A stretch of 51,005 bases of DNA, taken from positions 1 to 51,005 of the forward strand of contig NZ_JADEWV010000016.1 of assembly GCF_015207455.1 (NCBI RefSeq). The letters run 5' to 3'. The position numbers and the translations under genes were made by a program. Numbering within the stretch: the stretch's first letter is position 1; each line of letters opens with the position of its first letter. This document shows, piece after piece, positions 16,365 to 17,940 of the stretch. Under the pieces are notes generated by a model. It ran no database searches, had not been told where the DNA came from, and saw only the letters and a program-made list of their open reading frames with translations. This DNA comes from Microcoleus sp. LEGE 07076. Its GTDB lineage: Bacteria > Cyanobacteriota > Cyanobacteriia > Cyanobacteriales > Microcoleaceae.

Positions 16365-16407
16365 TTAGCCGCCGATTTGAGACATCGTGCGGCTATAATA
16401 TTCTTAA
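16365..16407 (-). pseudogene. Displaced remnant of the moaA 3' end
   Basis: 43 nt matching the true moaA end (16951-16993) with about six differences. In the moaA frame it still reads [14 protein letters not shown], and the differences inside that stretch are synonymous (ACA/ACG, GGG/GGC). Same orientation as moaA. The hicBA cassette and a long inverted repeat lie between remnant and intact gene. Confidence 0.7.
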
Positions 16408-16426
16408 CAAATGAATCAATAAATGT

Positions 16427-16630
16427 ATGAAAATTAGAGCAATTATTCATCCTGCAGAAGAAGGTGGCTATTGGGCTGAAGTTCCCGCACTTCCTGGGTG
16501 CATTACCGAAGGAGATACTATGGAAGAAGTGATGGCTAATTTAAAAGATGCCATTGAAGGTTGGCTCGATGTTGCTAATAGTCGTGAAGCAATTGCTTCC
16601 ACAGATAAAATTGTTGAAATTGCTGTATGA
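16427..16630 (+). CDS. hicB: HicB-like antitoxin
   Basis: 67 aa, the short HicB form. Seen: the partial RNase H-like fold signature EEGGYWAEVPALPGCITEGDTMEEVMANLKDAIEGWL. No C-terminal DNA-binding domain is present, so autoregulation, if any, would need another route. Its stop overlaps the start of hicA (ATGA), the standard coupled arrangement. It neutralises the HicA mRNA interferase by binding it. Confidence 0.92.
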   Translation: MKIRAIIHPAEEGGYWAEVPALPGCITEGDTMEEVMANLKDAIEGWLDVANSREAIASTDKIVEIAV

Positions 16631-16845
16631 AATCTATTTCAGGGAAGCGACTGTGCAAAATAGTAGAGCAGAAAGGTTGGGTTTTGAAAAGAGTAACTGG
16701 CAGTCATCATATCTATGAAAACCCCGAAATAGAACAAATTTTGTCAATTCCTGTTCACCGGAATCAAGATTTGAAAATTGGAACCTTAAGAGCCTTGATG
16801 AAAATAGCCCAGCTATCTGAGGAAGATTTACAAAGTTTATCTTAA
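16627..16845 (+). CDS. hicA: HicA-like mRNA interferase toxin
   Basis: 72 aa, double-stranded-RNA-binding-like fold of the YcfA/HicA family. Seen: SGKRLCKIVEQKGWVLKRVTGSHHIY with the catalytic His in GSHH, then SIPVHRNQDLKIGTLRALMK. Cleaves mRNA independently of ribosomes when free of HicB. Translationally coupled to hicB by a four-base overlap. It appears intact, unlike several other toxin genes in this window. Confidence 0.93.
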   Translation: MKSISGKRLCKIVEQKGWVLKRVTGSHHIYENPEIEQILSIPVHRNQDLKIGTLRALMKIAQLSEEDLQSLS

Positions 16846-16854
16846 ACGGAAATT

Positions 16855-16919
16855 AGGAGACGGCAGTGCCGTGTCCCTACCGAAAATAATACTGTAGGGA
16901 CACGGCACTGCCGTCTCCT
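16855..16919. repeat. Perfect 26-bp inverted repeat between hicA and moaA
   Basis: Arms 16855-16880 and 16894-16919 (core GACGGCAGTGCCGTGTCCCTAC) are perfectly complementary, with a 13-nt A-rich loop. It sits between convergent genes and may serve as a bidirectional terminator, but the length points to a MITE-like dispersed element. A related half-site (GGCCGTGTCTCTACCG) lies at 24415-24430. Confidence 0.85.
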
Positions 16920-16950
16920 CTACATCATTCCGGTGTTACCGGAATTGATA

Positions 16951-17940
16951 TTACCCGCCGATTTGAGACATTGTGCGGCTATAATTGCCTTGAGTAGTTC
17001 CCGAATCTCGCTGCTTGAAATTAATCTCCGGTTTAATCTCTAATATCTGCTGCACTCGATCGCGCAATTCAACCGTAGACACCCCATTCCGTAAAGCAGT
17101 TTTCAAATCAATTTGCCCCGTTTCGTTCAGCAGACAAGGCCGCAGCCACCCGTCAGCAGACAAACGCATCCGGTTGCAGCGATCGCAAAAACACTCAGAC
17201 ATTTGACTGATAAATCCTAAAGTACCCTTCGCCCCCGGAATTTGAAACACATCCGCCGGCCCGTTTCCGCGAATTCCCGACTCCGCTAACCCGTATTTTT
17301 CGTTAATTTGTTGCCGCAAATCTGCCGAAGCTACCCAACCTTTATCGCCAAATAAATCCCCATTGCCGATCGGCATAAACTCAATAAATCTAACGTGCCA
17401 ATTCCGGTTAATAGTTAATTCTGCCAACTCCAATATTTCGCCATCATTCACACCAGGAATCACCACCACATTCAACTTCAGCGGATCGAATCCAACTTGA
17501 TAAGCCGCTTGAATTCCTTCCCAAACCTGCGTCCAGCGCGAGCGGCCCCGACTACCAATTATCTGATCAAAAGTCTCCGGTTCCAGGGAATCCAAACTAA
17601 TATTAATCCGGCGCAAACCAGCACTGTATAGATTTTCGGCCATTCCCGCCAGCAAAAAGCCGTTAGTTGTCATTGACAAATCTCGCGTTTCGGGCAAAGA
17701 TGCGATCGACCCAACCAAATCCACCACCCCAGGGCGCAGCAGCGGTTCCCCACCAGTCAGCCGAAACTTAGTAAATCCCACAGGTATAAAAACTTCCCGC
17801 AGCAGAGTTAGCAATTCCGAGTGAGTTAGCAACTGCTGCTGCAATACATAGTCCAACTCGCTACCTTCCGGCATACAGTAGAGACAGCGGAAATTGCAGC
17901 GGTCGATTAAACTAATCCGAAGGTAGTCTACGGGATTCAT
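16951..17940 (-). CDS. moaA: GTP 3',8-cyclase MoaA
   Basis: Radical SAM enzyme for the first step of molybdenum cofactor synthesis (GTP to 3',8-cyclo-7,8-dihydro-GTP, with MoaC). 329 aa, full length. Seen: N-terminal cluster motif [14 protein letters not shown] with Cys15, Cys19, Cys22; the GG(E)P-type SAM motif in [13 protein letters not shown]-terminal second cluster [20 protein letters not shown]; and the C-terminal Gly-Gly essential for activity. The next gene upstream, on the opposite strand, is a nitrate-reductase-associated protein, fitting Mo cofactor supply to nitrate reductase. Confidence 0.97.

Follow-up and report, generated by a model that had tools for sequence, protein, structure and literature searches.

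The window, by which we mean the whole stretch of 51,005 nucleotides analyzed here (Microcoleus sp. LEGE 07076, genome label G000, assembly GCF_015207455.1, contig NZ_JADEWV010000016.1, positions 1–51,005), carries on its minus strand an intact moaA gene of 329 aa (positions 16951–17940; open reading frame list and protein search), which forms the left-hand homology anchor of an array of modules. By protein search, MoaA identity was 91–97% in 22 full-length loci of the genus (L010–L031). Behind the gene, a direct repeat and a scan for the gene end both revealed a second moaA 3' end, a stub of 35 nt on the minus strand at positions 16365–16399. Positions 16364–16399 and 16950–16985 are identical at 34 of 36 nt with a spacing of 586, and hicBA lies in the 586 bp between the stub and the intact end. 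The first-pass annotation had described this repeat as a match of 43 nt; the repeat itself is real, but its extent is shorter, as 33 of 35 bases match and the next eight positions (16400–16407 versus 16986–16993) agree at only four. The minus strand of the stub encodes the MoaA tail and stop codon with two silent changes relative to the intact end (ACA to ACG, GGG to GGC), and we accordingly retain the earlier description of a diverged moaA end with synonymous differences. Among the 25 intact ends compared, the window stub is closest to that of genome G010, with 40 of 41 nt matching when the six bases after the stop codon are counted.

The pair in the gap was identified with Pfam, in agreement with its first naming, as the hicB antitoxin gene (16427–16630, plus strand; PF15919, UPF0150, E = 2.9e-10) and the hicA toxin gene (16627–16845, plus strand; PF07927, E = 1.4e-19). 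We found hicB behind moaA in 8 of 25 loci, in three of which it is shortened to 57 aa, and hicA in 4 of 25. A repeat search confirmed a perfect 26-bp inverted repeat next to hicA (16855–16919; arms 16855–16880 and 16894–16919, 100% identical), which the first-pass annotation had placed in the gap together with hicBA. Its arm, AGGAGACGGCAGTGCCGTGTCCCTAC, is scattered over the window genome and accounts for 36 of the 39 own-genome matches of window positions 15700–17200; the repeat was accordingly rejected as a cassette end and is regarded as a dispersed hairpin of this genome. Directly behind the stub lies c22, an open reading frame of 131 aa without a Pfam family (15961–16356, plus strand), which in G010 stands directly behind the intact moaA. 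It adjoins c23 (63 aa, no Pfam family; 15816–16007, plus strand) in both the window and G010. Two genes of the Uma2 family follow on the plus strand (PF05685; 15199–15789 and 14535–15128), 87% identical in protein and 88% in DNA. A possible moaA-end mini-stub of 14 nt, AAATCGGCGGCTAA, precedes the second Uma2 gene on the minus strand (15125–15138) and is weak on length alone; its context recurs in L039 and L040, and mini-stubs of 14 nt are insignificant by length, given two 15-nt matches in the reverse-strand control and one weak match in the control farther downstream. The right-hand landmark of the variable region is a conserved methyltransferase gene (8629–9807, plus strand; Pfam), which 21 of 25 loci carry within 9 kb downstream of moaA. 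Upstream of moaA, window positions 18026–18200 contain a separate direct repeat with a spacing of 96–97 bp (58 nt at 91% and 28 nt at 96%).

We searched for the MoaA protein in 59 genomes, including that of the window, and obtained matches in 56. Forty stretches (moaA and the DNA behind it) were taken, 24 of which are moaA loci of genus relatives and make up, together with the window, a set of 25 loci. The protein search gave no match in G024 and G027, which are genus genomes 95–96% complete, and one genus genome contains a second moaA copy, 70% identical (G007:C125:79008-79994). All 29 genus genomes were then scanned with a 29-nt degenerate pattern of the moaA 3' end, allowing at most three mismatches; the pattern was found at 33 places in 25 of the 29 genomes. 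Seven extra moaA tails were detected in 6 of these 25 genomes (the window genome, G004, G012, G019, G020 and G025). All seven lie on the same strand as moaA, from 0.55 to 2.3 kb behind it, and none was found elsewhere in these genomes by the pattern scan. The sole extra match away from a moaA 3' flank is the second moaA gene of G007; with this exception every extra match stands just behind moaA, and chance repetition was therefore rejected. Nor are the stubs in general artefacts of draft assembly, since G019 consists of a single contig and G012 of six. Stub lengths differ (about 35, 41, 43, 113 and 120 nt), all stubs start inside the last 122 nt of moaA, and the two long-stub classes start at –113 and at –120 to –122, at most 10 nt apart. 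In a phylum sample of 339 genomes, a protein search with the 41-aa tail, which 35-nt stubs would escape, matched 99 genomes, 93 of them outside the genus; among these 93, a second tail match was present only in G319, on another contig.

The cargo behind moaA differs among these genomes. The first-pass annotation had suggested looking for further toxin–antitoxin cassettes at moaA ends, and relatives indeed carry toxin–antitoxin-like and Uma2 modules with stubs of their own. By Pfam, the spacer between intact end and stub holds hicBA in the window and a Gp49-like/HTH_37 pair in G004 and G025; Uma2 genes occur in the spacers of G020 and G025, and a DUF7689 protein in that of G019, so that the spacer genes with a family comprise hicBA, Gp49/HTH_37, Uma2 and DUF7689. 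A protein of 198–210 aa is present in the spacers of G012 (with a hicB remnant) and G019, and has a 160-aa relative in G028 without a Pfam family. Behind moaA in other genomes, we found, among others, an Mrr-type restriction protein (G005, after hicBA) and an HNH protein (G006). In G001 and G020, Uma2 genes, both full length, overlap the moaA stop codon. G025 is a three-layer stack, in which moaA is followed by a toxin–antitoxin pair with Uma2, then by a tail with Uma2, and finally by another tail with hicBA. The moaA variable region of G021 (L056) encodes, 954–2270 behind moaA, a protein with RRXRR and HNH domains, whose layout we take to be IscB-like.

A comparison of the 400-nt flanks that follow the moaA ends, 25 intact and 7 displaced (32 in all), showed that the flanks of five of the seven stubs also stand directly behind the intact moaA of another genome. 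For the window, the stub flank is 98.5% identical to G010 over 400 nt, and the colinear match with G010 extends over 593 nt at 97.6%, starting 37 nt inside the gene end. An empty site, as predicted in the first-pass annotation, is seen in G010, whose moaA directly precedes the sequence that follows the window stub. Similarly, the stub flank of G019 matches G003 (90.6% over 170 nt), those of G020 and of the first stub of G025 match G001 (87% over 400 nt), and that of the second stub of G025 matches G009 (94% over 81 nt). The flanks of the G004 and G012 stubs had no counterpart behind an intact moaA among the 32 ends. Single layers occur beside moaA elsewhere: moaA–c22 in G010, moaA–hicBA in G005 and moaA–Uma2 in G001. 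G010, G003, G001 and G009, which supply the counterparts from outside the stub-bearing set, all match records labelled as metagenome bins, in which a wrong join at the moaA-end repeat is possible, and our confidence in the best explanation is slightly lowered because these four counterpart genomes are bins. Counterparts not labelled as bins are G005, whose moaA–hicBA matches the last tail and hicBA of G025 (87% over 783 nt), the own moaA–Uma2 end of G020, which matches the first stub flank of G025 (90% over 400 nt), and the moaA end of G019, which matches the second stub flank of G025 (79% over 102 nt).

The joints between stubs and the preceding modules were examined for nucleotides common to both parents, with every possible pair of breakpoints in these parents, the actual one among them, as the background. 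In the window, the joint between the upstream flank of hicB and the stub (16394–16399) is TATAAT, or ATTATA on the minus strand, 6 nt that fit both parents; such an overlap occurs in about 0.0025 of random breakpoint pairs. The joint of G012 is AGGAAA, likewise 6 nt common to both parents, G005 providing the unbroken hicBA flank. At the second stub of G025, the joint with the upstream region of Uma2 (read from G017) is TTGAATT, 7–8 nt depending on the allele. At the related joints of the G020 stub and the first G025 stub, the moaA allele is GCGAATT, and the overlap there is 5 nt rather than 7–8. Among random breakpoint pairs, overlaps of 6 nt have a frequency of 0.0025–0.0033 and those of 7–8 nt a frequency of 0.0002–0.0004. 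Since 41 nt spanning stub and flank agree at 95% between the window and G012, the window stub may be a form of the G012 joint with a deletion of 29 nt; likewise, the short stub of G004 resembles a G019-type stub shortened by deletion, because the two share 35 identical flanking nt. We thus count about three independent founding joints at differing positions, for only two of which both parents are at hand, and each traceable founding joint carries microhomology of 5–8 nt. The right ends of the modules vary. Within moaA itself, identity followed along the gene against five genomes gave no clear breakpoint for a crossover.

These results suggest that modules accrete behind moaA by one-sided homologous import combined with a microhomology joint, without a dedicated integrating enzyme, and we consider this explanation reasonably likely. 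The region behind moaA would then be a recombination hot spot that gathers small modules such as hicBA, the Gp49/HTH pair, Uma2 and DUF7689. Imported DNA carrying a moaA end and another module would pair with the resident moaA by homologous recombination, presumably in a RecA step, and its non-homologous end would be joined slightly inside the old moaA end at 5–8 matching bases; alternatively, a piece carrying a moaA tail might be attached behind the resident module, again at 5–8 matching bases. In either case one full moaA end would always stay, leaving the gene intact, while the other would persist as a stub, and finished arrays might then spread between species through ordinary homologous recombination. 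A random joint would not demand that stubs start only within the last 122 nt of the gene; longer repeats, being unstable, may have been lost. As to the route of entry, Pfam families PF03772 and PF02481, which we take to be the comEC and dprA families, are present in the window genome and also match in E. coli; they would permit DNA uptake but do not show it. In the excerpted texts of the respective sources, gene flow among Microcoleus lineages is reported (PMC10923798), and merodiploids arising by transformation (PMC3784515) and small variable segments (PMC2884548) are described. The first-pass annotation had mentioned homologous recombination as an alternative route, which comes close to our explanation; the latter adds a microhomology joint on the other side.

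We further analyzed the order of arrival in the window by comparison with G005, which carries hicBA behind its only moaA end. Up to position +560, exactly where the stub begins, the two sequences are colinear with an identity of about 94%, and colinearity resumes at +684 in G005 and +2521 in the window (78.9% over 246 aligned columns; the alignment score is 79, and no other segment of this locus scored above 6). Between these points, the window has the stub, c22, c23 and the two Uma2 genes (about 1.96 kb, 14434–16393 by colinearity, starting inside the stub) in place of about 123 bp of G005. Identity between the window and G005 is 93.7% in moaA, 90.4% of 3194 aligned nt upstream of moaA (overlapping pieces included), and 91 and 93% over the ATP synthase region, which aligns in two pieces; identity to G010 is 92.4% in moaA, 81% upstream, and 84 and 73% in two pieces of the ATP synthase DNA. 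The segment from the stub through c22, 97.6% identical to G010, far exceeds the G010 identity of both moaA and the ATP synthase region. Because G005 has hicBA behind a single moaA end and contiguous with the backbone, hicBA was probably resident in the window, and the stub with c22, c23 and the Uma2 genes probably represents a later import, partly from a G010-like donor. A single moaA end with hicBA in place, as in G005, is precisely the arrangement named beforehand as contradicting the earlier reading, and the claim that hicBA was the incomer that displaced the old end is doubtful for the window, given the colinearity with G005 through hicBA.

The reverse order, in which a lineage with moaA–c22, as in G010, received moaA–hicBA from a donor and kept the stub of its own end, is the less probable of the two and still deserves serious consideration. 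The donor DNA would have crossed over within moaA and been joined by microhomology inside the old end. The product would look exactly like the window, and the left anchor, moaA, is obvious; this order also fits G025, in which a displaced tail precedes hicBA in the arrangement seen beside moaA in G005. However, in G005, one of the nearest genomes, hicBA runs without a break into the backbone downstream, and identity between the window and G005 through hicBA (about 94%) equals that of moaA. Moreover, the c22 flank is much closer to G010 than the remaining region is, and the reverse order requires that hicBA was lost and then regained. Placing the window by its ATP synthase DNA gives a mosaic, so that G005 is counted as one of the nearest genomes rather than as its sister; another placing query, window positions 28233–29519, had matches in only 4 of 29 genus genomes. 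Over its initial 1.15 kb (window 19601–20750), the ATP synthase region falls into two classes, showing 72–74% identity to the window in many genomes and lying within longer matches of 87–91% in nine other genomes of the genus.

With respect to the mechanism, one-sided import has a close parallel in homology-facilitated illegitimate recombination (HFIR), which combines one-sided homology with an illegitimate joint and, in the excerpted text of PMC3240628, involves mostly 3–10 bp of microhomology and inserts of about 1 kb. The moaA array would share with it one homologous end, and it resembles it in its microhomology joint and in inserts of about 1 kb; the main difference is that HFIR products, according to the same excerpt, usually delete resident DNA, whereas the moaA array contains a short tail duplication. 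Such a duplication would arise in a single step if small circles, end-joined from broken DNA with a moaA end, were integrated by a Campbell-type single crossover. When HFIR was tested in E. coli, the PCR product that reveals a partly duplicated homologous segment was obtained from 56 of 60 clones; in 14 sequenced clones the duplications measured 109–950 bp and were explained by circles (PMC3240628, excerpted text). The stubs of up to 120 nt would suit a short shared segment. However, on general grounds crossovers within 35–120 nt at 90–95% identity should be rare, and no such circles were seen in the plasmid, phage and viral collections searched; we therefore judge this route unlikely.

Gene-end stubs are usually taken as the scars of an integrase, and site-specific integration at gene 3' ends is known from SCC at rlmH and e14 at icd. 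As in those systems, at moaA the incoming end restores the gene, a stub remains at the far side and accretion is in tandem. The first-pass annotation had proposed that a cassette integrated at the 3' end of the gene, possibly by means of a mover that acts in trans. In its full form, this explanation makes the moaA 3' end a sequence-specific attachment site, without attC-type sites, for satellite-like cassettes that lack an integrase, bring their own moaA end and rely on a recombinase encoded elsewhere. It would account for the use of the same gene end in the same orientation, with the gene always restored and the cargo different each time, for stacking together with empty sites, and for two long-stub classes that begin at most 10 nt apart. 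We nevertheless consider it quite improbable, both as an account of the array and as a claim about the moaA end as a docking site. Unlike the SCC and e14 type, the stubs vary in length and define no constant core, the module ends are not fixed, the joints carry microhomology and no recombinase gene is nearby: scans of the 29 genus genomes for tyrosine (PF00589) and serine (PF00239) recombinases found neither within 70 kb on a contig with moaA, many of which are only 10–50 kb long. PF00589 is present in 27 of the 29 genomes, the nearest on a moaA contig at about 76 kb (G021), and PF00239 in all 29, the nearest at about 115 kb (G004) and 122 kb (G020); an enzyme from elsewhere in the genome may therefore act. 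The addition of the serine recombinase scan led us to rate integration slightly lower. In addition, the 41-aa moaA tail had no match in plasmid and phage collections, nor did the exact tail pattern in viral contigs, absence from such collections being weak evidence, and a comparison of window positions 16365–17100 with plasmids yielded nothing productive. The moaA stubs, with their layers, their microhomology joints and their counterparts free of the insert, instead speak for homologous import from one side.

Simple tandem duplication, or slippage, inside a single lineage, which would suit the repeated moaA-tail and Uma2 unit of G020 (flanks 94.75% identical over 400 nt), was rejected for most stubs and is scarcely credible as a general explanation, since five of the seven stub flanks match other genomes and the DNA behind the intact end is unlike that behind the stub in the window, G004, G012 and G019.

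Arrays comparable to that behind moaA have been described in Vibrio cholerae, where Kirchberger et al. (2017) proposed HFIR for the orphan immunity gene arrays of the T6SS, with sequential displacement (PMC5361080). As far as the excerpted text of that source goes, modules there likewise accumulate after the conserved part of a gene and push older 3' ends and immunity genes downstream, the layers occur singly in other strains and no evidence of an integrase is given. The displaced 3' end there is that of an effector gene, whereas here it belongs to the housekeeping gene moaA, whose product is unchanged, and the cargo consists of toxin–antitoxin, Uma2 and uncharacterized genes. Rhs C-terminal displacement, mentioned as a parallel in the same excerpt (PMC5361080), also leaves displaced 3' regions lined up after a conserved gene; those 3' regions are variable toxins, whereas the moaA tails are nearly identical and the protein is unchanged. 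A limited literature search found no published account of moaA as an integration site or array anchor in Microcoleus or in cyanobacteria. The moaA stub array is a real and well-supported structure, in which a largely known type of mechanism appears in a new setting, and the locus offers a natural record of the entry of small modules into chromosomes without the machinery of mobile elements.

Displaced 3' ends of conserved genes are a simple signature for which other genomes can be scanned. As a control, we examined 929 open reading frames of at least 100 aa from 60 stretches of 20 kb (1.2 Mb; G012, G019 and G021) and the window. Tail matches numbered 14, in 12 of the 929 open reading frames (moaA included), compared with 18 head matches; on inspection, many of the matches proved to be genes or segments present in several copies, the two Uma2 genes, or short stretches of low complexity. 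A few displaced 3' ends were also seen, most clearly at an open reading frame of 3218 aa in L137, and at open reading frames in L136. Thus, moaA looks like a hot spot and not the sole site of displaced 3' ends, although the two counts, 6 of 25 genomes for moaA alone and 11 of the remaining 928 open reading frames, are in different units. In L137 (G012), the 3' end of the 3218-aa open reading frame (about 1769–11425) recurs over 58–65 nt at 395 and 2351 bp downstream, a pattern reminiscent of polymorphic toxin genes with displaced tips.
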